Source: Fulvivirga imtechensis AK7 (GTDB taxonomy: Bacteria > Bacteroidota > Bacteroidia > Cytophagales > Cyclobacteriaceae). From it: DNA of 64,000 bases. Made by a program: the position numbers and the translations under genes. The notes below the pieces were generated by a model. It ran no database searches and had not been told where the DNA came from. It saw nothing but the letters and a program-made list of their open reading frames with translations. The stretch is taken from contig NZ_AMZN01000033.1 in NCBI RefSeq assembly GCF_000331535.1, forward strand, positions 1 to 64,000. The letters run 5' to 3'. Positions 21,179 to 39,700 of this stretch are shown here, in pieces. Each line of letters begins with the position of its first letter. Positions within the stretch are counted from its first letter, which is position 1.

Positions 21179-22153
21179 ATGCAGCATTTGTCGATAATAG
21201 TCCCGAATGGAGAGAATAACCTGAGTAGTATAGTAGGTTCGTACAAAATTTTCTCCAGAGCCAATGCTATCCGGAAAAGCAAAGGCCAAAAGGAGCGTTT
21301 TAAAATTGAGTTAGTGGGCACTTCAGAAAATGTTGATTTCTATGACGGATTATTCACCGTAAAAACGCATTCGCATATACTCGGCATTAAAAAAACCGAC
21401 CTCGTGATCATTCCTTCACTGAATCATAATTATGAGAAAGCCCTAAAAGACAATGGACCATTGATAGAATGGCTCATAAAACAATACAAAGAAGGAGCGT
21501 CTATTGCCAGCATTTGCACCGGGGCATTCCTGCTTGCGGCAACGGGGCTGCTCAATGGAAAAAGTTGCTCCACACATTGGTCTGTAGATACTGAGTTTCG
21601 GCAAATGTTTCCCAGGGTTGACCTGAAAACTGATAAACTTATAACTGATGAAAATGGGATATACACCAACGGAGGGGCCTTTTCATTTTTGAATCTGATC
21701 ATATACCTCATAGAAAAATATTACGACCGCCCCACCGCCATTCATTGCGCTAAAGTCTTTCAGATTGACCTCGACCGCAACCTGCAGTCGCAGTTTTCCA
21801 TTTTCAATGGTCATAAAAAACATGACGATACTACTGTGCAACAGGCCCAAAAGTATCTGGAGGAAAACTATAATGATAAAATCTCCATCGAATCCCTGTC
21901 AAAAAAGTTAAATATTGAAAGAAGAACCTTTGACAGAAGATTCATTAAGGCAACAGGAATTACACCTTTGGATTATCTGCAAAGGGTTAAAATCGAAGCT
22001 GCCAAAAAATCCCTTGAAAACACCCGGAAGACAGTAAATGAAGTGATGTACGAGGTGGGATATAGTGACACCAAAGCATTTAGAACTGTGTTCAGCCGAA
22101 TCACAGGCCTCTCGCCCAATGGCTACAAATCAAAATACAACAAGGAAAGTTGA
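21179..22153 (+). CDS. GlxA-type AraC-family transcriptional regulator
   Basis: The protein has 324 residues. Residues 1-190 are a DJ-1/PfpI-like domain with the nucleophile-elbow region SICTGAFLLAATGLLNG and STHWS. Residues about 215-320 are two AraC helix-turn-helix motifs (KISIESLSKKLNIERRTFDR and VNEVMYEVGYSDTKAFRTVF). Members of this group sense small molecules or act as repressors/activators of neighbouring genes. It is transcribed divergently from the SRPBCC pair with a shared operator-like inverted repeat, so it likely regulates them and itself. Confidence 0.9.
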   Translation: MQHLSIIVPNGENNLSSIVGSYKIFSRANAIRKSKGQKERFKIELVGTSENVDFYDGLFTVKTHSHILGIKKTDLVIIPSLNHNYEKALKDNGPLIEWLIKQYKEGASIASICTGAFLLAATGLLNGKSCSTHWSVDTEFRQMFPRVDLKTDKLITDENGIYTNGGAFSFLNLIIYLIEKYYDRPTAIHCAKVFQIDLDRNLQSQFSIFNGHKKHDDTTVQQAQKYLEENYNDKISIESLSKKLNIERRTFDRRFIKATGITPLDYLQRVKIEAAKKSLENTRKTVNEVMYEVGYSDTKAFRTVFSRITGLSPNGYKSKYNKES

Positions 22154-22209
22154 CAGTTTAAGAACTTTTGTCTGATCTTTGAAGAGAGTCCTACGAGGGC
22201 TATTAATTA

Positions 22210-22348
22210 GTGTTTGTAAGAAAACTCTAAGTGGTTTAAGAAAACGTTAAGATCAAGGCTTGTGAAGTGCCAAAAAGCAGAACCTACTGGGGTACGTGAG
22301 CACTTTTGGGACAAGCATAACGCAGACATTGGCGTTTCTTAGAGACAC
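22210..22348 (+). repeat. MITE-like repeat, copy 3
   Basis: Same family as the 4105 copy: it begins GTGTTTGTAAGAAAACTC and ends CTTAGAGACAC, with the GTGCCAAAAAGCAGA and CATAACGCAGACATTGGC blocks inside. AATTA occurs directly outside the left end and 1 base outside the right end, which may be a 5-bp target duplication. Confidence 0.75.
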
Positions 22349-22686
22349 GAATTAAAAAAACGCTCAAGATAAATATCAGCCTTACAAAGCACTACGGTGT
22401 AAGCGTTCATCCCAAACAAGAGTTACCGAAAATTTGAATTTCGGTTATCGGGGTATACCTTTGAATAGTGACGGGTATCATTAAAATCCATTGGTGTCCA
22501 GCGACTTGCCAAAATTAAAAATGGTAACGACTTTTCTTCAACGTTTGTACTTTCTCGTTCAAACGTAGCACTTACAGAGGGTCATCATATACTTGTCTCG
22601 CATACCAACATGCGTTTGTGTGACATGACCAAGTCTTTTTTGGCATAGGGGCAACGGAATTAATATTGAATTCGTCAGCTTAATTA
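22349..22686. other. Intergenic region between two repeats
   Basis: About 340 bp between two repeat copies. I see no open frame with coding character and no RNA gene. Short palindromes are present (AACGTTTG..CAAACGT around 22541-22566; GAATTTCGG area near 22435). It may be remnant DNA of a decayed element. Confidence 0.4.
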
Positions 22687-22909
22687 ATGCTTGTAAGAAA
22701 ACTCTAAGTGGCTTTAAGAAAACATCAAGGTCAAGCGCGCCTTTGTGTAGCCGCTTCGGCAGAGCAAGGGCTTGTGCCTGCGCACCGCAGTGCTATGGCA
22801 CACAGGTGTGAAGTCCCAAAAGCGGTAGTCCCGTACAGTTGTTACAGTTGTCGGAAAGAGCATTTTTGGGGCAAGCGTAACGCAGACATTGGCGTTTTCT
22901 TAGAGACAC
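22687..22909 (+). repeat. MITE-like repeat, copy 4 (expanded)
   Basis: Same ends as copy 3, with TGCTTGTAAGAAAACTC at the left and TTCTTAGAGACACGAATTA at the right, but the interior is longer by roughly 80 bp (blocks GTGTAGCCGCTTCGGCAGAG and GCACACAGGTGTGAAGTCCC). It ends 31 bp before the start of the A-T-AONS gene and so probably carries or displaces part of that gene's promoter. Confidence 0.75.
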
Positions 22910-22940
22910 GAATTAAAAACCAACTAAAAGAAACTAAAAC

Positions 22941-25900
22941 ATGAATGAACAACCAAATGCAACTCCGGGCATGCGAGCGGAATCCGTGCAAAACGAGAGG
23001 CATCACCCTGCAGAAACAATCTGGGAGCTGATCGCACAGCAGGCGCAGGCGCATCCGAAGCGGACAGCAGTTATCGATGGCGAAACCACTATAGACTTTA
23101 AGTATCTGACGGACCGGGCAAACGCAGTTGCGGGCGAGCTTGCAACCCGTGGGGTTGAGCCTGGCTCCCTTGTCGGTGTGTGCATGAGCCGCACCTGGGA
23201 ACTTGTGGCGACTTTACTGGGTGTATTACGAGCGGGGTGCGCATATGTACCGCTTGATCCTGCCTATCCAAAAGAGCGCGTGCGCTACATGCTGGAGCAT
23301 TCGCGCGCGCTAGCTGCCATTGTGGATGACAAGAAATGTGCAGAACTCTGCCAGGGCGTACACGAGCTCATAAGACTCGATCAGGTGGGTCAACAGACAG
23401 CGAAAACGGTAGCCGGGCCGTCTGCCAGCGACCTGGCCTACGTGATATACACCTCAGGATCAACAGGGCGGCCGAAAGGGGTTGCTATTGAGCATCGAAA
23501 TGTGGTTGCGATGATCCGGGTGATGGGCAGTTTGCTGGATAATGAGGATCTGAAGGGAATGCTGGCCGCTACCTCAGTATGTTTCGATCCCTCGGTCATG
23601 GAAATACTGGGAACCTTGTCATTAGGAGGAACAGTGGTATTGGCTAACAATATGCTCGACCTGCCGGCACTATCTTCGGCAAACCTGATAAAGAGTTGTG
23701 TTGTGGTGCCATCGGCAATACAAGCGTTGTTATCTTCAGGATGGACTCCTAATGGCATCAGAACTATCGTTTTTGGTAGTGAAGCGCTCAAACTACCACT
23801 TGTAGAGAAGGTTTTTGCGTTAAATACAGGGGCGCGGGTGTTCAATTTGTATGGCCCCACTGAAGACACCGTGTTCTCAACAGCCGCACAGGTTCATGAA
23901 GGCATCCAAACGGTTACCATTGGCAAATCAGTGCCAAATTCCCGTTCTTACATTCTCGATGATTCCATGAATCCGGTACCTGATGGCACTGAGGGGGAAC
24001 TTTATTTAGCAGGAAATCAGCTCGCGCGTGGCTACCTGTATGATGAGGAGCGTACCAAAGAACGGTTTATAGAAATGACTCCAAATGATGTGATCCCGGA
24101 GAAGCGGCTATACAAAACAGGTGATCTTTGCCGTAGAACGAAAAACGGAGAGATCGAATTTCTCGGCCGGGTTGACCAGCAGGTCAAGATCCGAGGGTTC
24201 CGGATCGAACTTGAAGAGATCGAGTCTGCACTCGAATCGATGAAAGGGATTACTGCGGCAGCCGCGGCAGCCGTAGATGGAGGCGCTGGACAAAAAATGC
24301 TTATAGCCTATATGGTGAGTCAGCACGAAGCAATTACGGATGAGCAGGTGAAAGCATATTTGGCGCAACGACTGCCAAAATATATGGTTCCCCATGTGGT
24401 GATACCCCTCAGGGAATTGCCTCTTTTGCCTAACGGAAAGCTCGACCGCAATAAATTACAGAGCTTAAAAGAGACCCGTAACTCTGTCCAGACACAACAG
24501 GCGCCTGAATCGAACCCCGGAACCATAGACTTCGCCACAGGGCAGCAAGCTGACATACTGGCTGGCATTCAGGGTGAGGTCGCCTCTCTTTTGAATTTTA
24601 GTGACCCTAAACAAATATTACCTGACCGTTCATTCGATAGCATGGGGCTTGACTCGCTGACCACCATAGAGTTAGGCAGTCGACTTTCCGGAATGCTGGG
24701 CCGAACGCTGCCGGCCACCGCAATTGTGGAGTACCCCACTCCTGAAGCCTTGACCCGTTATATTCTGAAACTTAGGGGCAGTAGCACAGATAATGAGCCT
24801 ATGGAAAAGGGGCGCAGAGTAGTTTCAGACTCTCTCGCGACTTTTCAGACACACATCCAGTCCAGCCACCCCACGTTTCAGGCTGCAAAAGTATCCGCCT
24901 GGTCGGCTACCGATAAGAGTATACTTGTGCAGGAAGTGTTACACATGGTGAATGATCAGCGCAGAAATCCCTACAGTAAGGTGCTCCGCACCGGAAGCGC
25001 AACCCGGGGTATGGTAACTGATGCATACAATGATGAAGAGCAGGAAGCCATCATCTGGACCACCAACCTGTACCTAGGCCTGAACCGCGATAAGCAAGTC
25101 ATGGAAGAATCGGCTAAGGCGTTGCAGCAATTTGGAACGGGAATGGGAACGTCTGCAGCAGCTTCAGGTATGACGGATCTTCACCTGCAGTTTGAAAAGG
25201 AGTTTGCTGAGTTGGTAGGAAAGCCTGGCGCTTGCCTGTTCCCTACAGGATATACAGCAAATGTCGGTGCCGTTGCAGGACTTCTGGGCAAAAACGATGT
25301 AGTTGTAATCGATCAACTCTGCCACGCATCCATCGTTGATGGGGCTCGACTGTGCGGCGCTACGATCAGAACATTTCAACACAACAATTCATCTGACCTG
25401 GAAGCAGTGCTTAAGTCTGAAATATCGCCTTACCGTACAGTCCTGGTTGTGCTTGAAGGTGTATACAGCATGGGCGAAGGCGCTGCACCCGTTGCAGATA
25501 TCGTGCGTATGGCTAAAAAATATGGTGCTCTTGTGTTAGTGGACGAAGCCCATTCATTCGGCTTTTACGGTGAACGTGGGGCAGGCATTTGCGCTGATCA
25601 GGGCATCACGGAAGAGGTAGACTTTATCATGACCACTCTCAGCAAAGCGCTTGGTAGTCTTGGCGGTGTGGTTGCCGCACGAGAGGAGCACATCGACCTG
25701 TTGAAGGCGTCAGCCAGAGCTTATATCTTTCAGGCCTCCATCAGCCCGGCAGATATGGCCGCAGCACTTACCGCCTTGCGCAGGATCCGCTCAGATGATA
25801 AACTGCGGGATCGACTCTGGGATACAACGCGATACATGCGCCAACGATTCACCAAAGCCGGGTATGACCTGGGGACAGGGGACGGCCCTATCGTAACCCC

Positions 25901-26552
25901 GCATTTTAGCGACAAGGATAAACTATACGCCATAGTGCAGGGCATGTATCAGCGTGGCGTGCAAACATCAGCGGTAACATACCCTATTGTGGAGAGCGGA
26001 CGCGGTCGCCTCAGGCTCATCTGCTCAGCTTCCCATACCCGTGAAGATGTTGACAGGACCCTGGAGGCCCTGATCGAAGCGGAACGTGAAGTGGATGAGC
26101 AGATGGCCGGTGCCCGGGTTGACACAAAGGAGCCAGGTATTATACAATCCGAGGTAGAGGAGTGGGCCAATGCCTTCTCTGCCTGGTTGAAAAAATTGGT
26201 GGCTAAAGCCCCTTACCCAACTCCGAATCTCGCTGTTTCCGTGAGGTTTCCCAAACAGGACGAGCCGATTACGATAGTGGTCAATGAGGGAGATGTCACA
26301 CTGGGCGCTGAAGAGCTATCTGATCTTCCGACCTGTTCATTGCTTCTCAAGGACCGGCAGACAGTCTCTGCTCTACGTACATCAAATGTTCAAGGGCTGC
26401 TTCACAGCATTAGCAAAGGTGCATGTGTGTTGAAGGGCGAGGTTGAGCCGTTTATTTGGCTCTTTGCACGAATGGTCGAACGGCAACAAGAAACACCACT
26501 TGACGTTTCGTTGAAAAACACAGAAGAAGCTATTTACCAGCCGGATTTATAG
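22941..26552 (+). CDS. A-T-AONS assembly-line enzyme with SCP2-like C-terminus
   Basis: The protein has 1203 residues. A nonribosomal-peptide adenylation domain (about 25-510) shows [59 protein letters not shown] and [12 protein letters not shown] carrier domain follows, with its phosphopantetheine Ser at about 572 ([12 protein letters not shown]). Then a PLP-dependent alpha-oxoamine synthase (about 665-1060) has [10 protein letters not shown] and Lys902 in [13 protein letters not shown] final 110 residues resemble an SCP2 lipid-binding domain. The expected chemistry is activation of an acid or amino acid, then decarboxylative condensation with a second amino acid to release an alpha-aminoketone. 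The gene stands alone between repeats and looks more GC-rich than its neighbours, suggesting transfer. Confidence 0.88.
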
Positions 26553-26685: not shown

Positions 26686-26729
26686 ATTTCAACTTAATAG
26701 TGGTGGACGTGGCTATAATTGGACTTAAG

Positions 26730-26810
26730 TTAACGTGAGTTCGATATAAAATGATTAAAAAAGGCGGTTATCCTGCCTGTCCCGAACTTGCCTAACTTGC
26801 CGCGGGGAGG
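26730..26810 (+). repeat. Direct repeat C, copy 1
   Basis: It starts with TTAACGTGAGTTCGATATA and ends with CCCGAACTTGCC...CGGGGAGG (CCCG/CGGG hairpin). The same two end blocks, in the same order and orientation, recur 470 bp downstream. The middle differs between copies. Confidence 0.55.
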
Positions 26811-26912
26811 TATCCAACAACTTTTTAGTTGATTTTGCAGATAATGACAGTTACCTGAACGCCCTTGATGAAATGGTGTTCCGCTGACGGCCAAAGCCTT
26901 TAGCGGAGGCCG

Positions 26913-27017
26913 TAAGAATTTCAATGCCACACGTACACCTCATAAATCACACTGTTTGAGCCCGTTATTTCAAACGGGGCGAGTTTGTGATTTGTTTATC
27001 GCAGGCATTGAAATTTA
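26913..27017. repeat. Dispersed repeat B, complete palindromic copy
   Basis: AATTTCAATGCC (26917-26928) and GGCATTGAAATT (27004-27015) are exact 12-bp inverted ends. Inside, TCACA...TGTGA and CCCGTT...AACGGG would extend the fold into a long hairpin. The left half matches the partial copy at 19671-19726 on the opposite strand. Confidence 0.6.
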
Positions 27018-27199
27018 GCCATTTGCTCACAGCCCTTGCTCCTCCATAGCCGCAACTGATTGTCAATAATTATTACACTAAATCACTCCTTTTTTTTCTT
27101 GAATAAAATTCAAATTTCTTATCCCGAACTCAGGTCTGTAATAGTCTCATAGGGAAAGACTACTGCTATTCAGAGGAACTACCAGGATACTTTGTATGT

Positions 27200-27300
27200 T
27201 TAACGTGAGTTCGATATAGTAGAACCGATTAAATTATATTCGTATCCAAAAATAAGCTAAAAAACCTCTTTTCAAGGTCCCCGAACTTGCCTCGGGGAGG
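27200..27300 (+). repeat. Direct repeat C, copy 2
   Basis: TTAACGTGAGTTCGATATA (27200-27218) recurs exactly from the first copy, and the segment ends with CCCCGAACTTGCCTCGGGG, a hairpin with CCCCGA/TCGGGG arms. A 13-bp perfect inverted repeat (ATCTTCCTAAGTT/AACTTAGGAAGAT, 27309-27350) follows at once. The whole 26.55-27.49 kb gap is made of such repeats and holds no convincing gene. Confidence 0.55.
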
Positions 27301-27308
27301 CACGAAGA

Positions 27309-27350
27309 ATCTTCCTAAGTTCAAGGATACTACCAGCAACTTAGGAAGAT
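27309..27350. repeat. 13-bp perfect inverted repeat
   Basis: ATCTTCCTAAGTT (27309-27321) and AACTTAGGAAGAT (27338-27350) with a 16-nt loop. There is no T tract, and no gene ends close by, so it is more likely part of the adjacent repeat than a terminator. Confidence 0.5.
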
Positions 27351-27497
27351 CCTAGGGGGCTGAATTCAGGACCTTTACTGCTAAAAGCCATTCAGGATAG
27401 TAAATTTGACATACAAATGTTCGCTGATTAACTGAAGAGTTCAGGGCTGTTGAAAAAGGACGAATTCAAAGTCTTACAAACACTAAATTAATTGATT

Positions 27498-28352: not shown

Positions 28353-29153
28353 ATGGCAAGGAGTACATACATTTCAGAAAATCTGACACAGAATCAAATT
28401 GATCTTATGCTGATGTTGGATGAGTATGAAATGGACATTTTTACTTTACATGACCTAAAGGAATTGGCATCTGATCAATTTGATGACATCAACGAGCTCG
28501 TAGAAAACCTTGTACATAAAAAAATACTATCTCGTATAGAAAGGGGGAAATACTGCCGCTCAAATTTTAGGGACGAAAAAGTGATCGGTACCCGATTGGT
28601 AGAAGATGGTGTGGTAGCTTATTGGTCTGCGTTAAACCTCCACGGATTAACAGAACAATTTCCAAATACGATTTTCATTCAGACCACAAAGGTTAAACCC
28701 CCGAAAGAAGTATTTGGCGTTAGCTATCAATTTGTAAGAATAACTCCTGCCAAAAGAACGGGGGTTGTAAAAGAAGGTTATGGAAATCATAGCTATCAAA
28801 TCACAGACGTAGAAAAAACAATTGTGGATTGCTTTGACCTGCCTCAGTATTCCGGTGGCTATGCCGAACTGATCAGAGCGTTTACGTCCGCAAAGCTATC
28901 TCCGGAGAAAATGATAGCATATTGTCAGGCAGTAAATAACAGGGCAGCCACCAAACGTATGGGTTACCTGGCTGAATTACTAGACAGAAAAGATATGAAG
29001 CTTTTCATTCATTTTGCCAAACACCAGGTAAAACAAGCTTATAATCCACTGGATCCATTAGGTATAGATAAAGGCAAATTTAACGCTGAATGGCGGCTCA
29101 AGCTAAATATCTCCGAATCCGAAATACTAGACATCGCCAACAAACAATACTGA
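28353..29153 (+). CDS. abiEi: AbiEi-type antitoxin (type IV toxin-antitoxin)
   Basis: The protein has 266 residues. An N-terminal winged helix (about 20-75: FTLHDLKELASDQFDDINEL, then LVHKKILSRIERGKYCRSNF) is followed by the AbiEi C-terminal domain with AYWSALNLHGLTEQFPNTIF and ITDVEKTIVDCFDLPQYSGG. It acts as the antitoxin and autorepressor of the AbiE pair, which gives phage resistance by abortive infection in characterised examples. The toxin gene starts inside its stop codon (TGATG), so translation is coupled. Both genes look intact. Confidence 0.92.
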   Translation: MARSTYISENLTQNQIDLMLMLDEYEMDIFTLHDLKELASDQFDDINELVENLVHKKILSRIERGKYCRSNFRDEKVIGTRLVEDGVVAYWSALNLHGLTEQFPNTIFIQTTKVKPPKEVFGVSYQFVRITPAKRTGVVKEGYGNHSYQITDVEKTIVDCFDLPQYSGGYAELIRAFTSAKLSPEKMIAYCQAVNNRAATKRMGYLAELLDRKDMKLFIHFAKHQVKQAYNPLDPLGIDKGKFNAEWRLKLNISESEILDIANKQY

Positions 29154-30013
29154 TGATCTTAAAAAAGGAAATAGGGAAAATTGCCGAACAAAAAAGTGTC
29201 GCAAAAACCACCATTGACAAAGACTGGGTGCTTGGGCATTTTATCGATGCAATATTTTCTATTCCCGAATGCCGTGATAAACTCATCTTCAAGGGAGGTA
29301 CCTGTTTAAGGAAATGTTACTTTGAAAATTATCGTTTTTCTGAAGATTTGGATTTTACAGCAACGGATCCTGACTTTGTTTTGGATACAAAACTATTGGA
29401 TCAAATTGTTCAATTAGTAACGGAGCGTACGGAGATCCCTCTGCATGTACACGAGCTCAAACTTTTACGACACAAAGATGAGCCAACGGGATTTGCTGCC
29501 AATGTCAAATTTTGGGGAGCAGACCACCCGAGAAACCAGGCGCCAGCTCCACCGCAACGTTGGCAGACTTCTATTAAGATTGAAATCATTCTGTATGAAG
29601 AAATGATCTTTACTCCGGAAAACCGGAAAGTACATCATCAATATAGTGATCAGCTAACCGAAGCTGCTGATGTAGTACCATGCTATGCAATACCTGAAGT
29701 GCTGGCCGAAAAATTCAGAGCTTTAATCCAACGATCATATACGGCACCACGGGATTTTTACGATATCTGGTACTTATCTCAAAACGCGTCCGATTTAAAC
29801 TGGCCAGAGATCGTGACAGCATTTCATCAAAAAATGAAATTCAAAGGGCTGGAATTTACCGGTATCGATCAGATGATCAATGATGAAAACGACAAGAAAC
29901 TACAGGCAGCCTGGAAAAATAGTTTAGGACATCAAATACCTTCAAAGGACATGGCAAACTATGATACAGTGAAAGAAGATTTAACGCAACTATTAAATAG
30001 CATATTAAAATAA
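29153..30013 (+). CDS. abiEii: AbiEii-type nucleotidyltransferase toxin
   Basis: The start at 29153 overlaps the antitoxin stop (TGATG) and gives 286 residues; an earlier start exists but lies within the antitoxin frame. The nucleotidyltransferase core is plain: DKLIFKGGTCLRKCYF (GG motif), then FSEDLDF with the catalytic D-x-D. VLAEKFRALIQRSYTAPRDF and YDIWYLSQN are also typical of AbiEii. The toxin probably transfers nucleotides to tRNA or another target and halts growth on phage infection. The next gene downstream is a broken hsdM starting 1 bp after its stop. Confidence 0.93.
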   Translation: MILKKEIGKIAEQKSVAKTTIDKDWVLGHFIDAIFSIPECRDKLIFKGGTCLRKCYFENYRFSEDLDFTATDPDFVLDTKLLDQIVQLVTERTEIPLHVHELKLLRHKDEPTGFAANVKFWGADHPRNQAPAPPQRWQTSIKIEIILYEEMIFTPENRKVHHQYSDQLTEAADVVPCYAIPEVLAEKFRALIQRSYTAPRDFYDIWYLSQNASDLNWPEIVTAFHQKMKFKGLEFTGIDQMINDENDKKLQAAWKNSLGHQIPSKDMANYDTVKEDLTQLLNSILK

Positions 30014-30014
30014 A

Positions 30015-30256
30015 ATGGGAATAACCGATATAAGAGTATTAGAGAACTGGTTATGGGAAGCGGCTTGCAAAAACGGGGAGAAGTAGATGCGCCAAAATAT
30101 AAAGATTATATACTGCCACTGATCTTCATCAAGCGGCTTTCTGATGTATTTGAAGGCAAAATCACTATTCAGGGAGAAGAATTTGGAAACAAAGAAATCG
30201 CAGAACAAATCATAGAGGAAGATCCTGCTATGGTTCGTTCTCTTCAGAGGAATTAA
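30015..30256 (+). pseudogene. hsdM: Frameshifted, truncated type I methylase subunit (hsdM)
   Basis: The start reads MGITDIRVLENWLWEAACK in one frame and then continues RGEVDAPKYKDYILPLIFIK and RLSDVFEG in the next, the N-terminus of an HsdM protein. A single missing base in the A-run at 30069-30073 explains the shift. After EEDPAMVR the HsdM sequence stops, only about 80 codons in, against roughly 500 for a full protein. No hsdS or hsdR remains. It begins 1 bp after abiEii, so the R-M operon was once directly attached. Confidence 0.75.
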
Positions 30257-30418
30257 GATCGCCACAATCCAATGAATATTCTACAATTATTTTTGTATAT
30301 ACCTCTAACGTATCAACAATTTCACATGCCTCTTCATCAGAAAGAGCTTCTATGCCTACAAATGTTCTTAACACATCAGGAGTCAATCGAGAGTCAATCG
30401 TTTTTTACCTTCTTTCAT
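30228..30418 (-). pseudogene. Frameshifted small protein gene
   Basis: From ATG at 30418 the frame MKEGKK breaks at the 6-base A-run (complement of 30401-30406). One extra base would continue it as TIDSRLTPDVLRTFVGIEAL and SDEEACEIVDTLEVYTKIIV, a helical protein of about 63 residues. Short proteins of this 'RLTPDxL...LSDEEA' type are common in Bacteroidetes mobile DNA, from memory. The last codons run antisense into the hsdM remnant, so the C-terminus is chimeric. It could be a sequencing indel. Confidence 0.45.
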
Positions 30419-30654
30419 AACAATTAAGTTTAAGTTAAATTGATATAACCTCCCATAAATTAGAGAGCAAGTGGATTTTAAAAATCCCACAATTGAATAA
30501 CGTATATGCTACCCCACAAAGAGAAAAATTAAGAAGGGGAATCGAACTTTTAAAGCATTAATTATTAGACACTTATAATCAATACTTTTAGACAGGTTTT
30601 TAAAGTTTGAAGTATCGAACTTAATGAAACCAATGTAAAATACTGATAATCAAT

Positions 30655-30684
30655 AAAAAAGCCTAAGCTATTAAACTCAGGCTT
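30655..30684 (-). terminator. Rho-independent terminator after the tRNA-Arg remnant
   Basis: On the minus strand the stem AAGCCTGAG/CTTAGGCTT (one mismatch), with loop TTTAATAG, is followed by six T. It lies about 12 bp beyond the 3' end of the partial tRNA, as expected for a tRNA transcription unit. Confidence 0.65.
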
Positions 30685-30695
30685 TACTTACTTAG

Positions 30696-30741
30696 TAGCC
30701 CCGACAGGAATCGAACCTGTATCAAAAGTTTAGGAAACTTA
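30696..30741 (-). other. Partial tRNA-Arg, left attachment site of the island
   Basis: Read leftward it contains the anticodon loop TTCCTAA, the T arm GATACAGGTTCGATTCCTGT and the acceptor strand CGGGGCTA, that is, the 3' half of a tRNA-Arg. The 5' half is replaced by AT-rich DNA, so no functional tRNA can form. It parallels the intact tRNA-Arg at 43920-43991 in the same orientation, with TTTAGGAAA (anticodon loop region) and CAGGAATCGAACCT identical between them. This is the signature left by site-specific integration into a tRNA gene. Confidence 0.65.
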
Positions 30742-30834
30742 TTTTTTAAAATATTAAAATATTAATTATCAGCTTATTACAATTAATATTAAAATATTAG
30801 CGAACTATTAGTGAACACCAACTAACGAAAAAAA

Positions 30835-32172
30835 TTATTCTTTAACAATTAAATTTAATGTTGATGAGCTATATGGAAAAACCTCAGGCATCACACTCTT
30901 AATAAATCCATTTTGAAAAAAAGCTTGTGCAACTCGTTCATCAAATAAGTCAGGATTCAAGAGAATATTCGCATTTGGATTGTGATAAATAATTATTCCT
31001 TCAGACCAAGATTCATCACTAGCCTCACAAACTTTGTAAGACAATAATGCAGGTTCAGAGGCATTCGGATCATGGTCATGATAGGAAATCGTCCTTATAA
31101 GCTCAACATTTCCACTTCCCAGCCCAGCTTGCTTGCCGATACGGTTGAACTTTGACAATGTCGCGCAAGACGAAAAAATGACGGCACTAACATTTTCAGA
31201 ACCTGGCTGAAAGAAAAAACCTGATGGAACAATAGTGCCATTCCTTTTTTTATAACCTTCTACTTGAACTGGTTCAATTAATAGCTTTCCATCATCATCA
31301 AATGAACTACTGTATTTATAACCATACAAGTATTCAGATAGAGCACCAAAACTCCATGTCATGGAAAAATCGTCATGAAAATCAGCTATGGCTATTACAA
31401 ACGGCATATTCTGAACATGATCTCTTTTCCAATATTCTTTCTTCACTTTACTGAATAAAGCACTTCCATACATTAAAGGAACGTCATTTGACAATGCTTC
31501 TTGGATTTCTTCGGAGGATTTATGCTCAAGCACCTTTGATAAAGCCGTCTTTCTACTCACAATAACCGCTTCAATAGCTATTTTTGGACCAAATTTCTCT
31601 ACAAGATAATCAGGAGCTTCATGATTTCTTTCAAATGAAAAATACTGCTCTCTAAAAAAACAGAAGAGATATAACTCCCAAACTCTGGCATCAAACCCGT
31701 TAATTGATTGAAACTGATCTATAAAGTTTCCGTCAATATCCTTATAGTGATAAGAAACTTCCTTAATAACCTCTCTTGCTGAACTGAATGATTCACTCTC
31801 TTTTAAAAGCTTGTAATTTGGATGAGTCTGTTTTTCACTCGTCCTTCCCTTAAAGACATCAAAATATTCAACATTCTCATGATATGTAATAGCATCACTC
31901 CCCATTTTAGTATCGATCCAACTTCTAGCTTGTTCAATAGTAGGGATATTACCTTCAACTGATTCAGCTCTATACTGCCTCGAGGAATCCCTAGATAAAA
32001 TGCAAGTGTAATAATCTCCGTCTATTAAATCCATACTAATTAATCCAAGCAATACACCATTCCCATTGCTGTAAAATTCCAACTCCTTTGTATAAAACTG
32101 AACGAATGGCTCTCTCGTAAAAAGAGCAAAAATATCAAAAAGCTTTTTGCTAATTGGATACGCATTTTTCAT
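30835..32172 (-). CDS. Unknown protein, possible PD-(D/E)xK-fold nuclease
   Basis: The protein has 445 residues and I do not recognise a named family. The middle (about 165-215) contains ARVWELYLFCFFREQYFSFE, then APDYLVEKFGPKIAIEAVIV, a pattern like the core of PD-(D/E)xK nucleases (P-D ... hydrophobic-E-A) but with Val where the catalytic Lys would be. C-terminal blocks include GFFFQPGSENVSAVIFSSCA and IIIYHNPNANILLNP. No signal or membrane segment is present. It is divergent from the cysteine desulfurase gene, 67 bp away, inside the island, so it may be an extra effector or helper of the Ssp system. That is inference. Confidence 0.6.
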   Translation of the reverse strand: MKNAYPISKKLFDIFALFTREPFVQFYTKELEFYSNGNGVLLGLISMDLIDGDYYTCILSRDSSRQYRAESVEGNIPTIEQARSWIDTKMGSDAITYHENVEYFDVFKGRTSEKQTHPNYKLLKESESFSSAREVIKEVSYHYKDIDGNFIDQFQSINGFDARVWELYLFCFFREQYFSFERNHEAPDYLVEKFGPKIAIEAVIVSRKTALSKVLEHKSSEEIQEALSNDVPLMYGSALFSKVKKEYWKRDHVQNMPFVIAIADFHDDFSMTWSFGALSEYLYGYKYSSSFDDDGKLLIEPVQVEGYKKRNGTIVPSGFFFQPGSENVSAVIFSSCATLSKFNRIGKQAGLGSGNVELIRTISYHDHDPNASEPALLSYKVCEASDESWSEGIIIYHNPNANILLNPDLFDERVAQAFFQNGFIKSVMPEVFPYSSSTLNLIVKE

Positions 32173-32189
32173 GGCTCATTAGTTTAGTT

Positions 32190-32234
32190 CAAATATAACA
32201 ACGTGCGAAAAGACACCTGGGTTGATTATATTTG
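32190..32234. promoter_or_regulatory. Divergent TATATTTG boxes
   Basis: TATATTTG occurs on both strands in the 67-bp gap (complement of 32190-32197 leftward; 32227-32234 rightward), matching the TAnnTTTG -7 element. Neither has a clear TTG at the right distance, and the rightward one would give an almost leaderless transcript, so this is tentative. Confidence 0.3.
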
Positions 32235-32239
32235 GACAC

Positions 32240-33346
32240 ATGAAGAATAAACCCTTGTACCTTGATTACGCAGCCACTACCCCTGTTGATGCACGTGTAC
32301 TGGAAGCTATGTTGCCCTACTTTACTGACAAATTTGGAAATGCGGCAAGCACCACTCACATACATGGTGAGGAAGCAAAGAAAGCAGTTGATCGGGCCTC
32401 GACCGATATATCCGACCTCATAAATGCGTATCCAGACGAGATCATTTACACATCAGGCGCAACCGAAGCGATTAATACAGCATTGAAAGGATTATATTGG
32501 AGTCACTCTCTAACTAGGTCACATATAATAACCGTAAAAACTGAACATAAAGCTGTTTTAGATACATGCAGATGGTTAGAGGAAATAGGATCGGAAGTTA
32601 CTTACCTTAACGTAGATCATCAAGGTCTCATCGACTGGGAAGAGTATGCATCTGCGCTAAAATTGAATCCGCTTGTAGTGTGTATTATGCATGCAAACAA
32701 TGAAACCGGAGTCATCCAGGAAATTGGCAAAATTGCTCAACTAGCTAAGGAAAGTGGTGCTTATTTCATGACGGATGCTACTCAATCATTTGGAAAAATG
32801 GACATTGATGTCGTTAAGCAAAATATAGACTTATTATGCTTTAGTGCACATAAAATTTATGGCCCAAAAGGAATCGGTGGACTGTACATCAAAAGAAACA
32901 TTAAGCTGACACCACTAATCCACGGTGGTGGACATCAACGAAATTATCGATCAGGCACATTAAATGTACCTGGTATTGTAGGATTAGGCGAGGCGTCAAA
33001 AATTGCTAAAAAAGAAATGAGAGAAGATGCTAAAAAGCTTCAAAAGCTGCGCGATCAACTTGAACATCAACTGATTGCTGATAATATGGCAAGGGTTAAT
33101 GGTAGTTTGACTCAAAGGCTACCTAACATATCAAACTTTGAGATAATAAACTGTTCCGCTGATGAATTTTTGCTGCGCAACAAAAATTTACTATCCGCCT
33201 CAACTGGCTCTGCGTGCTCATCAGAAGTAATACAGCATTCTCACGTATTAGCAGCAATGAACATCCATTCTCCCGCAGTAAGATTATCCTTTGGAAAAGC
33301 TACCGAAACCGCTTTTGCTCTACAGCTAGCTTTTCAAAGAATTTAA
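32240..33346 (+). CDS. sspA: Cysteine desulfurase of the phosphorothioation system (SspA/DndA type)
   Basis: The protein has 368 residues from ATG at 32240 (MKNKPLYLDYAATTPVD); a TTG six codons earlier is less likely. It is a class V PLP enzyme of the NifS/IscS group: the PLP lysine is in FSAHKIYGPKG and the catalytic Cys loop in STGSACSS. It should take sulfur from cysteine as persulfide and pass it to SspD for DNA phosphorothioation. It lies at the far end of the ssp cluster on the opposite strand, and its 3' end overlaps that of sspE by 21 bp. Confidence 0.85.
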   Translation: MKNKPLYLDYAATTPVDARVLEAMLPYFTDKFGNAASTTHIHGEEAKKAVDRASTDISDLINAYPDEIIYTSGATEAINTALKGLYWSHSLTRSHIITVKTEHKAVLDTCRWLEEIGSEVTYLNVDHQGLIDWEEYASALKLNPLVVCIMHANNETGVIQEIGKIAQLAKESGAYFMTDATQSFGKMDIDVVKQNIDLLCFSAHKIYGPKGIGGLYIKRNIKLTPLIHGGGHQRNYRSGTLNVPGIVGLGEASKIAKKEMREDAKKLQKLRDQLEHQLIADNMARVNGSLTQRLPNISNFEIINCSADEFLLRNKNLLSASTGSACSSEVIQHSHVLAAMNIHSPAVRLSFGKATETAFALQLAFQRI

Positions 33347-35443
33347 TTCATTTTGAAGCTGCATTTTAATTTGGGTAAATCTATTCTTCAGGAAAGTCTC
33401 CTGCTCATCCCTAGTGTTATTCGGAATTTTTTCAAAAGTAGAATGACCCAGGCAATGTGAATACTCAATAGCACTATTGAGCAGTGGCAAATATCTTTCC
33501 AGACTCAGACTATTAATCGCCGAGTTCGCTTTTTGTGATATTAATGTCCTATTCAAAGGACTGTTTAAAATATTATTTTTACTTGATCTTAATACTTTTG
33601 TAGACTCTCCCAAGGTAGTAACACTCCCCAAAGGAATAATGTGATGATCATTCAATATTTCACCATTCATAGCCACCTCCCAGGCTCTAAGCTTTCGTTC
33701 ATCTTCAACAAAGTCGTTTGGCTCAAGACTTAATATATATTGTAATACTCCGTTATGAATAGCTGAAGGAACCGTTTTGTCTTCCGTTTTATATAAGAAT
33801 GTATTTAGGTCAGAATAGTTAGACTCTGCAAACACATTATTAATCCTCTTTGGTAACTCTGTTTCAGTACCACCTGAAATCCATCTCACCAATTCTTTTA
33901 GATCATTAATAGCTCGCTGATTCTGTTTTTCGCGAAATCTCCCGGAAAACAAACTTGACCAATACCAAAACTCAATTTTATTTAGGGTATAAGCATCCTC
34001 CCAGTGCTCATCATGAGAAAGAGCTATTCCAATGGGTAGCAACATTAAGTTGTAGCTCAGTCCATTATAGTTAGGAATTCCACATCGAAATTGCAGAAAA
34101 GCTAAGCTCCTGGTTAAAGCCTTTAATGCTTGTTCAAGGGAATTTTCAATTTCTTCCTTTCTCAGATTTAATATTTTATCCTTCTTTATGTGGCTCACAT
34201 CCACACTATCTATTCCGTCTTTGCTAATTTTAGTTATTATACTTAAAAAATTCAGGAATTGCTCTTTAATTGGCTTAATAATAGAATCATTCTTTTGTAG
34301 CCCAAAACAGCTTGGCGAATATTTAACATCCTTCTTACCATTTGACAATTGACCAGGTATGTCTAAAGTGGAGAGAATAGAATTTTCTAACTTGTCATAC
34401 AAAGTTTCCTCTTCTCTCACATCTGCATATTTAGCTACCATGATATCAAAAGTATCCAATGGTGTTCCTCCCTTATTCATGTACTCAAAAACCGCAGTCG
34501 CACGAGGAAGTTCATTTGATTTGACATAGGGAATCATCAAATCAGAGGCAAACAAATCTTTGAAATAACTAATAAAGGACTCTATCCAGTTATCTCTCAA
34601 AGTCTCCCATACCAAATTGATACTCTGAATATTGTTATTCTTATATTTTTGCTTTATGGTACTATCCAAATGCCCTAAATATGTTTGGCTTATTTCATAC
34701 CCATTTGATTCATCGGAATTGACAATATTCTTTAATGATTCTAACCTTTTATTTGCTAAAATTTTTAAACAATTTTTTATGACAATTTTATCCTCACTCA
34801 TTAAATCATATAAGGGAATAAATTTTTGTGCGGCAAATTGCATTGCCACTTCAATTTTATTATCATATTCACTTGCCTCTTCACCTAAAGAAAAAGCTGG
34901 ATGGTAAAATTTTTCTTTATTTGTCGTCTTGAAGATCGTGAAGAACTTTAATCCATCTACAATATCAGAAGGCTCTTTAGTGTTTAAAATTGGCGTTAGT
35001 TCATTGTTGTCCCTTAGCATTTTAAATTGCAGATTGCTATAGCCTATTGCATCTCTAATTGCATCTTCAGTTAAGTCCATATACCACCTTTTCCTAAGAT
35101 GATAATGTAAACTGTCAAAATTATTTTCCCAGTCTTCGCTCCCAAAAAGGTCGTAAAATATGTTCTTTATAGTGGAGAGTCTTTGTTGCCCATCTAATAG
35201 AAAGAGACACCTTTCAGTAGGCTTAGCTCTTCTGTTGTAGCAAAGCTCCTTACTTACAAAGTCATCTTTTCCACCATCTAGAATTAGAAATGTTCCAATT
35301 GGTAAGTTGGTCAGAAATGAAGCTAAAAGCATCTGTTGTTGATCATGTTTCCAAACATAATCTCGTTGAAAATTGGGAAGAACCAACTGTTGATTTGAAG
35401 ATTGCTCTAAAAGTGACTGCAAGCTAAACTTTCTGAATTCCAT
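33326..35443 (-). CDS. sspE: DUF262-DUF1524 effector (SspE type)
   Basis: ATG at 35443 (MEFRKFSLQSLLEQ) is preferred over an in-frame TTG 4 codons earlier, giving 705 residues. The N-terminal DUF262 domain has LPNFQRDYVWKHDQQQML and the LLDGQQRLSTI motif (DGQQR, about residue 85). The C-terminus has an HNH-like DUF1524 motif: NDHHIIPLG, then NNILNSPLNRTLISQKAN. In SspE this architecture senses phosphorothioated self DNA through the DGQQR pocket, hydrolyses NTP and nicks unmodified phage DNA. It is the last gene of the leftward operon, 112 bp after sspD. Confidence 0.85.
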   Translation of the reverse strand: MEFRKFSLQSLLEQSSNQQLVLPNFQRDYVWKHDQQQMLLASFLTNLPIGTFLILDGGKDDFVSKELCYNRRAKPTERCLFLLDGQQRLSTIKNIFYDLFGSEDWENNFDSLHYHLRKRWYMDLTEDAIRDAIGYSNLQFKMLRDNNELTPILNTKEPSDIVDGLKFFTIFKTTNKEKFYHPAFSLGEEASEYDNKIEVAMQFAAQKFIPLYDLMSEDKIVIKNCLKILANKRLESLKNIVNSDESNGYEISQTYLGHLDSTIKQKYKNNNIQSINLVWETLRDNWIESFISYFKDLFASDLMIPYVKSNELPRATAVFEYMNKGGTPLDTFDIMVAKYADVREEETLYDKLENSILSTLDIPGQLSNGKKDVKYSPSCFGLQKNDSIIKPIKEQFLNFLSIITKISKDGIDSVDVSHIKKDKILNLRKEEIENSLEQALKALTRSLAFLQFRCGIPNYNGLSYNLMLLPIGIALSHDEHWEDAYTLNKIEFWYWSSLFSGRFREKQNQRAINDLKELVRWISGGTETELPKRINNVFAESNYSDLNTFLYKTEDKTVPSAIHNGVLQYILSLEPNDFVEDERKLRAWEVAMNGEILNDHHIIPLGSVTTLGESTKVLRSSKNNILNSPLNRTLISQKANSAINSLSLERYLPLLNSAIEYSHCLGHSTFEKIPNNTRDEQETFLKNRFTQIKMQLQNELNSLKS

Positions 35444-35554
35444 TATTATTCTCAAAAATTACCGATACAAAAACGCATGCAGGAACCAAAGGATACCGAG
35501 TTCTGCACTAAGATGTAATAATAGTAATTTCTACTACAATTCGTCCTTGATTTG

Positions 35555-36712
35555 TCAAATAAAACAAGAGGCACAGCCTATCCCTTCAGCTTCCATAATT
35601 TCCTCTTTCCAGGATTGATTATTTCTCTTATTTATACCTCTTTGCATGCGCAGATAGTGTTCTTTTTTTATAGCTTCTATTCTGTCTGGACTAGATAACT
35701 GATCCAAAGTTTCGTTATCCATCCACTTATACCCATCTTTCTCATACTCCTTCGCCTTCTCAAATAACTCTCTATGGTTCTCGTATAGCCATACCCACTC
35801 AATCTTTTGCTGGTAAAAACAGAAGAAACAGCCACTTCTACTTCTTGAATAAGTTCCTTGCTTTATTTCACCATCAATTTCGACTAAATAGGTTCGTTCC
35901 TTATAGTAAGCAGGTATCCCAACCCCACTATCTTCAAGTATTTGAAAAATATCATCAAGCTTTAACACATCCTCATTTTCGACAAGCGGAAATGATTTAA
36001 GTAAACCTACCGGTCTTATCTCTCTAGTGTTTGGGTCTTCGTATCTTTTGATATAAGTGAACACGGCATGATTAAAAGTTTTGACGGACACTTCCAGCAA
36101 AGCGCTTAGCTTTTGCTTCGATGTGAACTTCATTGAGATTGGGGTTTCCAGGTAATATTGTGCTGCTTTCAATTTCTTCTGACTAGCAATTTCTCCATAG
36201 CAATCGTTAAACTTCTCCCGAGATTTATTGCTTAAGACCTCCAATGTCAGTCCTTCATCCCAAATATTCCTTCTAAAGGGAAATATCGACTGTACATTGG
36301 GCTTCTTTGATATATATCCCTCTCGATCCTCATCACCTCTTATTCCCACGTAAGATATGGTCGGTTCATCACCAATATGCTCTTCAAAAGGCTTCAACTT
36401 AAGCGACTGAGTGCACCACCTAGCTGTTGAAGAAGGTAAGAAGCCTCCGAACTTTTCCAAAAAGTGATCAAATGTACTTTCATGAGGAGTGTCAATTTTG
36501 GGCCTTACGGCAACCAGTCGCTCAATAGGTTTACCCAACGTTATATCCAGTCTATCTATTAAATCATAGGTCTCTTGCAACTCCCGACCAGTATCACATG
36601 TATAATAGTCAACATCCAGTTCGGGGTGACGGGTTTTAAGATACAGAGCAAGGGCAGCACTGTCCTTGCCACCACTAATTCCTAAAACATGTCTCACTTT
36701 AGTCTTTTTCAT
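35555..36712 (-). CDS. sspD: ATP-pyrophosphatase/PAPS-reductase-like protein (SspD type)
   Basis: ATG at 36712 gives 385 residues; a TTG one codon earlier is less likely. The N-terminal PP-loop SGGKDSAALAL (about 11-21) marks the PAPS reductase/DndC family, which adenylates the DNA backbone for sulfur insertion. Two Cys groups are visible, RSGCFFCFYQQ and the C-terminal GIGCASC, possibly holding an iron-sulfur cluster or relaying sulfur. It overlaps the sspC stop by 14 bp, so it is translated in the same operon. Confidence 0.88.
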   Translation of the reverse strand: MKKTKVRHVLGISGGKDSAALALYLKTRHPELDVDYYTCDTGRELQETYDLIDRLDITLGKPIERLVAVRPKIDTPHESTFDHFLEKFGGFLPSSTARWCTQSLKLKPFEEHIGDEPTISYVGIRGDEDREGYISKKPNVQSIFPFRRNIWDEGLTLEVLSNKSREKFNDCYGEIASQKKLKAAQYYLETPISMKFTSKQKLSALLEVSVKTFNHAVFTYIKRYEDPNTREIRPVGLLKSFPLVENEDVLKLDDIFQILEDSGVGIPAYYKERTYLVEIDGEIKQGTYSRSRSGCFFCFYQQKIEWVWLYENHRELFEKAKEYEKDGYKWMDNETLDQLSSPDRIEAIKKEHYLRMQRGINKRNNQSWKEEIMEAEGIGCASCFI

Positions 36713-39700
36713 CAAAATACTTGTTAATAATCCTGATCAAAGCAGCCTTGTTCACATGCCTGTCATCGGTTAACTGCTTCATTAAAACTGCCTCAACGTT
36801 GTCAACCAAATCCTTTTTATCTGATGGAATAATAACCGTTTCATTCCTTTTACTTCCATCGTGATTGAAAACCTCAAATCTTATAATTTCGTCAGCTATT
36901 CTTTCTTTCTTTAAGCTATGGATATCGAGCAGTTTTTCCAAATCACCAAAATATTCCTCAATCCGAACCATAAGCAACGGTTCTTCATCGTCCTTTAACT
37001 GCTTTAAATTCCTTGATATTAGCACATCACACAAACTTTGCAACCATGAATCACGATCATCCAGAGGCGACATTAACCTATTGAAAAATGTACGGTGCTT
37101 TTGCAGTAAAAGATTTGAATCAATTTGTCCAAATCTCTTCTGAATAAGACTCTTATAATTCAAAAATCTCTTTTCCTTTATGCCCAACACATTCAACATC
37201 TTGCTTTCCACTCGATCAAGGAGGTTGCTGAAAGCTGTTCTAAGTTCAAATATAGAGGTATTTAACTCATCCAGATACGTTTGGATTATACTTTCATCAC
37301 CCTTCAGATTCACACCATGAAATCCTAATGCCTTAGGAAATTGTTCAAACAAGGCTTCCTCTGGATCTTTTGCTTTTTCTATCGCTTCCCTAAAGGCGGA
37401 TGTCGAAGAAGTTAATCTTCCTGTTTGTTTATTATATTGAGGCAAGTCATTATAAAACCTCATAAATTGACTAAAAATACTAATAAAGCTACTACCCTTT
37501 CCCTGCTTGTCTTCTGGCAGTGCTGCCAACTCCCTATACTTATGATATAAATCAACTTTTATGCCTTCGACATCATATGTCTTTATTAAAAAATCCTTTG
37601 GCTTTTTGTGGATCAAATCAAGCACATCCGATGTCAAGTAAGGTATATAACCTTGATTGACATGAAAAAGAGCATAATCTTCTCTTCTTATGATCAGGAA
37701 AATAGGAATCCAGAACTCAATCAATCCCTTTTTTAACTTTAATGGTGGTTCCTTTAATGCCTCATAAAGATCATTAACTGATTTTTTGTGGGCTTTAGCC
37801 TCATCCAAAAAGGATTCGCATACGTTCCATAAAGGGAGGAAAGACTTTTCAACCGGCATTCCTAACACCCAACCATTACCTTCTTTACGATGAATACCAG
37901 TGTCCTTCAAAAGGCTTTGGTATATTGTTTTTTGAGGTGGAAACTTATGAGATGGGTAATCCAAATCTTCAAGTTCACTGCTTTCAATTATATCATTAAG
38001 CAATGCTTTCCTTGCTGTCAAGATTGGACTACTAAGATGTTCCCTATTGACCATCTCATTCAAATAAACTGGAGTATTATAATAAGCCACCTCAGCTACA
38101 TCTGACAACAAAGAGTTAAGATCTCTGTAAGACGAAATAGATAGGCTTTTCCCTGAATTAAACCACTGAACTTCCTCGTTACTATAAAGACTTGTGAAAA
38201 TTAGTTTTCTGAGTTTTGAAACTTCATGATGCCGTTCTTCAAGTAAAATTTTTTGAGCAGTTGGATCTTCGGACAACTTTTGTACTACATAATCAATTTT
38301 GCCTATTTCAAAAAGAATTTCTCCAATGGGACTTATATTAGAATAAAGGACAAAAATCTGTCCGGGATGAGAGCTTACTGAGCATTGCTTCATTTCATTC
38401 ACTAGCTCTTTGTCACCGAAAACAATGTTTATGTAGCCATCCACCTCTCCGTCAGGAACCATAACCTTCCCGTCACTTATATCCTCCCAATTGTATAAAT
38501 TAAATGCAAAGAATCGTGGTGTACCTCTTAAGTACTGGATTCGTTTAGCAGGTAGAGTTGGAAACTCAAGAAAATAGTTCAGAGCTCTTTTTACATCTTC
38601 AATAGGACTGATTTTACTAGAAGCCTCAATTAACTCCTGCTCAAAATCAACATCAGTACCTTCAAGAAAGAAGATTTTATTTCGATGACTATAATACTTG
38701 ATAATCTTTTGACGAATGAGCTTATCAATTAACTCGTTCGCATTTTCTATGCCCATTGCAGAATACGCATATTCCTCAAGGAAAGACTTATCTAAACGAC
38801 CTAAAGGCTTACCAAAAAGATTTATCAATCCAATACATTTTAGCAAACTTGCCATTTCCTCGTACTGCCCATCATTCAATGCTTCGGCACGCTGTATTGC
38901 CGTAAATGTTGATTGCCATAGTGGTTTATGAGGATTGTTATCACGATCTTCAAGTTCACTAGACATGTATTTGATTAAATAGTCAAATACATCGGCAACA
39001 TTGTAAGTTTTGTTAGATGCAGAATCAAAAAGCTGCAAAGAATCTTTCTCTCTTGAAGCCAAAAAGGTGAAAAGAGATCGCTCATTTTGCCCGTATTTCT
39101 GCAATGCCTGTGTAAGGATATTTGCCGACAAATAGTCCATAGGATAAAGCTTTGCAGCCAAGTCTTTATCCAGATTCTTCGCATGAGAAATAAGCCCTGA
39201 GTCATTTATTAGTTTAAAAAGACTAACAAAGTTCTTCTTTGAGCGAATTTTGAACCCGAATTCGCTAATTCTTCTAGACGATAAGTAAAGAAGTTGTTCG
39301 ATAGGCTCGTCAAATGCAATGTCTATTAATCGTCCTTTTACTTTATCCCACTCTAATTTTTGATCTCTTGATAAGCCACGGGCATAGGCTTTAAAGTTTT
39401 TATGAAGTGTGATTACAAAGAGCGCATGCTTTTTAGGATCATTAATGTATTCCGCCAGTTGTTGTATAAAATAAAGTTCTTTATCAGGATTGTTTTTGGC
39501 TGCAAATTCAAGAAACTTCCCAAATTCATCAACTACAATAAAAAGCACCTTTACGTCCGCAACAGAATGCATGTAAATATCTTCGAGTCTTTTAAAAGTC
39601 TCATTAATATTTGCTTCCTCATCCAGCCCAATTTTTTGATTAAAGACTTTTATGAATGATTCGGACTCCCCAACAATTTTTAAAAACTCAAATTTCTTCA

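Follow-up and report, generated by a model that had tools for sequence, protein, structure and literature searches.

Proteins that carry an adenylation (A) domain, a carrier (T or CP) domain and a pyridoxal 5'-phosphate (PLP)-dependent alpha-oxoamine synthase (AOS or AONS) domain in a single chain are already known: a 2013 survey of PLP domains in nonribosomal peptide synthetase (NRPS) and polyketide synthase (PKS) proteins catalogued A1ZVW4 of Microscilla marina as A-CP-PLP2 (AOS), with the product entered as '?' and the cluster as unknown, and likewise listed A3ZWL3 of Blastopirellula marina as A-CP-AOS (Milano et al., PMC3870968, Table 2). A tail of the SCP kind is not mentioned there, the words 'sterol' and 'SCP' being absent from the paper's main text. 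Here we describe a gene with the same order of A, carrier and Aminotran_1_2 domains, followed by an SCP2-fold tail, at positions 22941-26552 of a 64,000-nucleotide stretch of Fulvivirga imtechensis AK7 (contig NZ_AMZN01000033.1; the whole stretch is hereafter called the window). Since an uncultured Microscilla relative carries the gene (L017, 69% identical), A1ZVW4 very probably belongs to the same family. The initial annotation of the window had proposed an undescribed aminoketone pathway; the 2013 catalogue weakens this claim as to architecture. Among the matches listed from the open-licence PMC literature we found no described product for the A-T-AONS architecture, hence no homologue known to make one, nor any description of the family or of where its genes lie; the accession A1ZVW4 was found in PMC3870968 only. 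What is added here is the family itself, its apparent transfer between classes, its sister enzymes and the active-site positions favouring serine.

Other described systems resemble the gene product in part. In PigH and TamD a carrier is likewise fused upstream of an AOS, which is predicted to condense the carrier thioester with L-serine (PMC4698589, PMC3870968), but these proteins have no A domain of their own, act inside a large cluster and belong to another AOS clade. In SgaAB of Pseudomonas fluorescens MYb115 an assembly-line product is also released by an AOS, as reported for SgaB, although there the chain is PKS-made, the AOS is a separate protein and the product is a sphingolipid base (PMC12134224). 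CorA of Corallococcus is likewise a single NRPS-type gene giving an amino ketone precursor, in that case of the pyrazinone signal coralinone, whereas its ketone arises by PKS extension and decarboxylation and not through a PLP-dependent AOS (PMC10979472). The closest solved AOS, and the top-scoring solved PLP domain, is the serine palmitoyltransferase (SPT) of Sphingobacterium multivorum (3A2B), which shares the PLP and carboxylate residues and whose Ser242 corresponds to Ser901 of the window protein. Serine palmitoyltransferase is fed by acyl-CoA. The gene product differs from it in scoring below the cut-offs of the SPT equivalogs NF047599 (326.7 against 500 bits), NF047600 (313 against 640) and NF047603 (257.8 against 670).

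Open reading frame (ORF) analysis of the window gave a gene with an ATG start and 1203 codons, in the frame and with the coordinates and length initially annotated. Matches above cut-off were obtained in Pfam for AMP-binding (residues 32-366), AMP-binding_C (426-500), PP-binding (543-608) and Aminotran_1_2 (704-1044), and in NCBIfam for amino-acid adenylation (TIGR01733, 386 bits against a cut-off of 317); the top-scoring solved A-domain protein is linear gramicidin synthetase. Together with the fold of the tail these matches bear out the order A-T-AONS-SCP2 that had been read from the sequence (Table 1).

Table 1. Coordinates in the window of the gene, its domains and the surrounding features
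Feature	Position	Strand	Remarks
A-T-AONS-SCP2 megasynthase gene	22941-26552	+	1203 aa; 21 relatives aligned, 61-81% identity
NRPS-type adenylation domain	23013-24470	+	residues 25-510; Pfam and NCBIfam
Carrier (T) domain	24567-24764	+	residues 543-608; Pfam PF00550, 45.6 bits
Conserved stretch preceding AONS core	24861-25034	+	residues 641-698; median identity 84.5% to 27 relatives
AONS (alpha-oxoamine synthase) domain	25035-26105	+	residues 699-1055; Lys902 at 25644-25646
SCP2-fold domain	26151-26510	+	residues 1071-1190; EPFxW motif; Cys1162 in 28/28 and Cys1132 in 27/28 rows
Dispersed intergenic repeat, two copies, upstream	22203-22358, 22680-22919		not gene-specific
Dispersed repeats, downstream	26725-27356		not gene-specific
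AbiEi/AbiEii pair	28353-30013
PD-T7-1-like protein	30835-32172
SspA/DndA-like cysteine desulfurase	32222-33346
GmrSD-N protein	33326-35455
SspD-like PAPS-reductase protein	35555-36715

Alignment of the family revealed that all 13 positions we checked (D216, K500, S572, N709, T769, H795, D868, A870, H871, S901, K902, S933 and R1025) are identical in every one of 28 rows, a count that leaves out the partial copies L024, L029, L032 and L044 and, as duplicates of L009, L013 and L026, the loci L035, L038 and L039. Ser572, whose codon lies at 24654-24656 in the motif MGLDSL and which would carry the phosphopantetheine arm, and the PLP lysine Lys902 are where the initial annotation had placed them, and the loss of catalytic residues that it had named as the finding to look for against its proposal was not seen. 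Three phosphopantetheinyl transferase-family matches (PF01648) above cut-off occur in the genome. The PLP domain has the residues expected of an AOS (K902, D868, H795 and R1025 in 28 of 28 rows, with His871, Ser901 and Ser738 also of note; Aminotran_1_2, 157 bits), and His-Ala-Ser is present in the 18 family rows of our AONS tree. It scores below the cut-offs for BioF (TIGR00858, 323 against 426 bits), Kbl (TIGR01822, 267 against 493) and ALAS (TIGR01821, 253 against 339). The active-site residues given for 3A2B, His137, Ala211, His212, Thr111, Ser272, Arg366 and Ser242 (PMC3870968), align to H795, A870, H871, T769, S933, R1025 and S901.

The A domain should accept an alpha-amino acid, because Asp216 and Lys500, which we take from our mapping of the code positions onto GrsA to be the equivalents of Asp235 and Lys517, are kept throughout the family. 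Read from the anchor motifs, the ten-letter code is DPMVIFLVFK in the window protein and most commonly DTMVLFAVYK in the family, and since the position read as 301 is Phe a small or branched hydrophobic side chain would be expected. The second amino acid can be approached through the AONS domain. In a docked model of 3A2B, Ser242 bonds the serine hydroxyl, and it is conserved in the group members selected by Milano et al. (PMC3870968). The residue before the PLP lysine is Ser in rows above an SPT cut-off (L051, L059, L065 and L067), in two PigH-type rows and, as Ser901, in all 28 family rows, and it is Gly in rows above the Kbl, BioF or ALAS cut-off (L056, own_L002, L057 and L058). All 17 Kbl loci read at this position, own_L002 among them, have Gly as well. 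At a second selectivity position, Val79 of ThAOS and Ser102 of SpSPT correspond to Ser738 here, and BioF too has Ser at this position. Ser738 and Ser901 both point to L-serine as this second amino acid; glycine or alanine would also be possible.

From these features we think it rather probable, on balance, that the protein is a pathway in itself, in which a carrier-loaded amino acid is condensed with a free amino acid and released as an alpha,alpha'-diaminoketone. The A domain would activate an alpha-amino acid with ATP, and the phosphopantetheine arm on Ser572 would then hold it as a thioester. By the AOS mechanism (PMC6148460) a carboxyl group linked as a thioester cannot leave, so the carrier-bound amino acid would be the acyl donor and the free second amino acid the one decarboxylated: the AONS domain would form a PLP external aldimine with the latter, which would attack the aminoacyl thioester, and loss of CO2 would release the chain as the diaminoketone. 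With L-serine as the second amino acid the product would be a 2,4-diamino-1-hydroxy-3-ketone. The AONS is the sole visible off-loading step, in line with the initial annotation, and it appears that no further gene is required for product release. The most tentative step of the scheme is the role of the SCP2-fold tail, which probably protects a reactive or hydrophobic product or passes it on.

No member among 22 gave a match to a Pfam SCP2 model at E <= 1, and we therefore turned to a fold search. This assigned the C-terminal tail to the SCP2 fold, with matches to UbiJ (6h6o) and human SCP-2L (8af3/1ikt) at 10-16% identity, and so the SCP2-like tail of the initial annotation is upheld by fold and not by Pfam. 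SCP2 domains bind lipids. The tail differs from these proteins in being fused to an NRPS-AOS chain.

Among 84,980 species genomes 25 loci matched, of which 24 carry the gene whole or in part at 61-81% identity; the 25th, in Nostoc (L033), matches the AONS part only. The carriers are Fulvivirga, Xanthovirga, Microscilla, Aquimarina, Kordia, Sinomicrobium, Chitinophaga, a Dokdonia metagenome-assembled genome (MAG) and other MAGs, one of them labelled Gammaproteobacteria and represented by a 12-kb contig. An even sample of 395 genomes from across the phylum showed the tail in the window's own genome only, whereas within the genus a near full-length gene is present in nine of 14 other genomes and missing in five (G002, G007, G010, G011 and G012); the gene is thus rare at the level of the phylum but common in one genus. 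In G016, which belongs to the same family, it is fragmented. The Fulvivirga kasyanovii protein (L009) is identical to that of G001 over 1233 residues, and the Fulvivirga sediminis protein (L026) to that of G006. In the AONS tree two Sinomicrobium copies (Flavobacteriia) and the Chitinophaga copy (Chitinophagia) cluster with support of 100/98, and this group is nested at 99/93 with the window, F. kasyanovii and two more copies from the same genus. The same-genus copies L026, L040 and L043 fall outside that group. The pattern is best explained by transfer of the gene between classes.

The gene appears to be under purifying selection, with a ratio of nonsynonymous to synonymous change (omega) of 0.07-0.10 over the protein against four relatives (L009, L036, L037 and L010); by domain, omega is 0.02-0.04 in AONS and 0.14-0.22 in SCP2. 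As the initial annotation had remarked, the gene exceeds its surroundings in GC content (51.7% vs 40.5% for the rest of the window), and the same is true in 21 of the 22 loci that have over 5 kb of flanking sequence, a count to which the window belongs. No record in the plasmid collection exceeded 60% identity to the whole protein; among the matches listed at least four records (three from Thioclava, one from Pseudoalteromonas) extend over at least 80% of its length with about 29% identity, and there A and AONS are separate genes. In the phage collection 19 records match an AONS-tail query, none over 80% of the query, and the five matches listed are 33-35% identical, two of them annotated as Kbl. 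Taken together, the enzyme type is clear and the gene is real, intact, conserved and apparently transferred.

We compared the A, T, AONS and tail regions by BLAST (E <= 1e-3) with the rest of the window and with the flanks of 24 relatives (up to 10 kb per side, several shorter). Apart from one 22%-identical AMP-binding ORF in L024, and a broken family copy in L032, no NRPS partner was found by that search, in agreement with the initial report that no other NRPS gene lies nearby; the genome and its relatives do hold other NRPS genes. Neither a condensation nor a thioesterase family is among the Pfam families listed (25 of 62) for the 38 of 42 immediate neighbours scanned (all but the four of L022 and L025), and each listed family has at most three members. 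Of three Microscilla neighbours large enough to be megasynthases, Pfam identified one as a Laminin_G/secretion-tail protein and another as an RHS-repeat protein; the third has no A, T or AONS match by BLAST. A conserved gene cluster was looked for and not found: shared blocks are limited to Kordia (L021, L022, L025 and L030) and Aquimarina (L016, L019 and L023), and no neighbour family occurs in more than five of the 24 loci. A product released without the help of another gene fits these changing settings and the spread between classes.

The AONS tree contained 18 of the 28 family rows together with rows of the PigH, SPT, BioF, Kbl and ALAS types; these comparison rows were drawn largely from plasmids and are not a broad sample. 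Rows own_L001, L003, L004, L005 and L008, which gave no usable BLAST match and are not AONS, were left out. Of the comparisons that the initial annotation had suggested, the one with PigH could thus be made, whereas SxtA, CqsA and SulA are absent from the tree. The program warns of long branches and does not resolve the backbone between AOS classes. A clade with support of 100/99 unites the 18 family rows with three AONS proteins that stand alone and have 36-44% identity: Nostoc L033, which by our reading adjoins a SnoaL-like ORF and a short-chain dehydrogenase; L049, on a Rhizobium rhizoryzae plasmid and adjoining a methyltransferase; and L052, on a Photobacterium damselae plasmid. Family and sisters have a GTSA motif in common. 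In most other rows Arg follows Ser/Thr/Val at that place, though this Arg is also missing in L057 (Gly) and L053 (Gln). The two PigH-type rows fall outside this clade.

Several observations weigh against a self-sufficient diaminoketone synthase using serine. To our knowledge no assigned adenylation code matches either DPMVIFLVFK or DTMVLFAVYK, and the first amino acid substrate is for that reason a guess. Ser also precedes the lysine in L066 (annotated BioF, 398.6 against 426 bits), L053, L061 and L063, and by a motif test L103, one of three further AONS loci, has Ala there; because of these exceptions we infer, and do not assert, a preference for serine. Where the usual G[S/T/V]R motif has Arg, the window protein has Ala739. 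Omega of the T domain reaches 0.31 in one pair, synonymous sites are near saturation (pS 0.60-0.66) and a fifth relative, L040, is saturated. Foldseek TM-scores of the tail are modest (0.52/0.62 for 6h6o, rmsd 5.7), and an AlphaFold model of residues 20-1203 had low confidence (pLDDT 54.6) and was discarded. Short assemblies of the A-CP-AOS group are reported to lie often beside NRPS/PKS genes (Milano et al., PMC3870968). Finally, a partner gene may exist, because seven single families, each in two to five loci and at differing distances, recur between genera. One is a protein with a guanylate-cyclase domain, encoded 1.7-6.4 kb downstream of the gene in five loci (three of Aquimarina, two of Kordia); the other six, each seen in two or three loci, are the short-chain dehydrogenase, cNMP-binding, LytTR, LysR, SusD and DJ-1/PfpI families. 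All of these are common families and none is adjacent to the gene. The guanylate/adenylate-cyclase protein, of about 360 aa and on the opposite strand (L016 15239-16321, L019 17060-18142, L023 11091-12173, L022 19921-21015 and L025 18540-19631), may be there by chance or as a partner.

A recurring dehydrogenase would also suit an explanation that we consider unlikely though credible, namely that the aminoketone is an intermediate from which enzymes elsewhere in the genome make a pyrrole or other ring. This has been proposed for PigH and TamD (for TamD in a conference abstract in PMC4698589), and the PigH-type carrier-AOS proteins in L050 and L054 do lie within prodigiosin/tambjamine-type clusters; in three loci (L009, L019 and L021) a short-chain dehydrogenase is encoded close to the gene, and one also lies close to the sister AONS of L033. 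Such a scheme sits poorly with the lack of any neighbour family in more than five of 24 loci, and with the position of the PigH-type rows outside the family's clade.

We give still less credence to a lipid pathway, in which the AONS would condense an amino acid with a long-chain acyl group, or the SCP2 domain present one, to give a sphingoid-like lipid. That the nearest solved AONS is the SPT 3a2b, that lipid binding is established for SCP2 domains, and that none of the 15 genomes of the genus, the window's own included, has a CFB-type SPT match at E 1e-150 (the search was for this type alone) would all be in keeping with it, but the A domain is of the alpha-amino-acid type above cut-off with the presumed Asp235/Lys517 equivalents kept, and the SPT equivalog scores fall short (327/500 and 313/640). 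Equally improbable in our view is that the A-T half feeds aminoacyl units in trans and the AONS half acts separately on CoA thioesters, the fusion serving co-expression only. The linkers 511-542, 609-640 and 1056-1070 are weakly conserved (median identity 21%, 41% and 27%), the sister AONS of Nostoc, Rhizobium and Photobacterium are separate proteins and other NRPS genes exist in the genome and its relatives; yet the domains remain fused in the window protein and 21 aligned relatives, and no NRPS gene is nearby.

Returning to the release of a diaminoketone by the protein itself, one can extend it to a one-gene, horizontally spread route in gliding and marine Bacteroidota, in which the diaminoketone from a carrier-bound amino acid and free L-serine would dimerise to a diffusible pyrazine signal and the SCP2 domain would carry the product off the enzyme. 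As a whole we hold this extension to be a long shot. If this is true, pyrazine formation would here depend on an AONS instead of threonine-derived aminoacetone, a terminal reductase or a PKS step. Two features are unusual: the SCP2 tail, and the fact that the gene recurs with no gene cluster visible around it. Its recurrence in changing surroundings in three Bacteroidota classes suggests a product that is useful by itself. An NRPS-type release that forms a carbon-carbon bond and an aminoketone, joined to a lipid-carrier fold, would be an enzyme that can be put to use, and a new signal may derive from it.

The nearest ORFs of at least 110 aa in the window are an AraC/GlxA-type regulator at 21179-22153 (gap 787 bp) and the AbiE pair (gap 1800 bp). 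The gene had been described as boxed in by repeats, which is literally true; both flanks are, however, ordinary dispersed genomic repeats, with at least 45 matches for the upstream and 67 for the downstream copies, self included (among the best 40 of 379 and 40 of 275 candidates), mostly about 120-330 bp each and intergenic. Because they are dispersed genome-wide we rejected them as borders of a mobile element. Just downstream lies a defence island (28353-36715) that begins with the AbiE pair. An RNA family search of the window gave two tRNA matches at the gathering threshold, none near the gene; a partial tRNA-like Rfam match at 30704-30761 on the minus strand (model 8-63 of 71, 36.5 bits), not reported by ARAGORN, is possibly a tRNA remnant in the island.

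By a motif test, an N-terminal region of about 70 aa (MDKLTxFxxELxTNxDKLxRFNSGS...) is present in 14 of the 28 rows (L012-L014, L016, L018-L020, L023, L025, L027, L028, L031, L037 and L041) and also in L035, the longer duplicate of L009; it had no Pfam match at E <= 0.01 in two proteins tested and was not seen in the window protein. Three-frame translation of 22641-22999, judged by eye, shows no copy of it, and a lost upstream start in the window gene was accordingly rejected. An in-frame TAG in G008 was likewise ruled out as an interruption, being the gene's own stop 32 codons past EPFIW.

Among the other AONS loci, L051 (1023-5074, in an E. coli record) holds a fatty acyl-AMP ligase, an epimerase-type protein, an acyl carrier protein and an AONS above the serine palmitoyltransferase cut-off (599.9 vs 500), an apparent SPT operon. 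On the Streptomyces clavuligerus plasmid pCLA1, L053 (739-7172), unannotated there, has by our reading AONS, acyl-CoA dehydrogenase-like and adenylation ORFs adjoining a PLP synthase-like and a dehydrogenase-like ORF. A further AONS paralogue (G000:C6:257897-258973; bioF, E ~1e-80) occurs in the window's own genome and in most relatives searched, and L103, which belongs to this paralogue group, possibly uses another substrate, since it has Ala before the PLP lysine.

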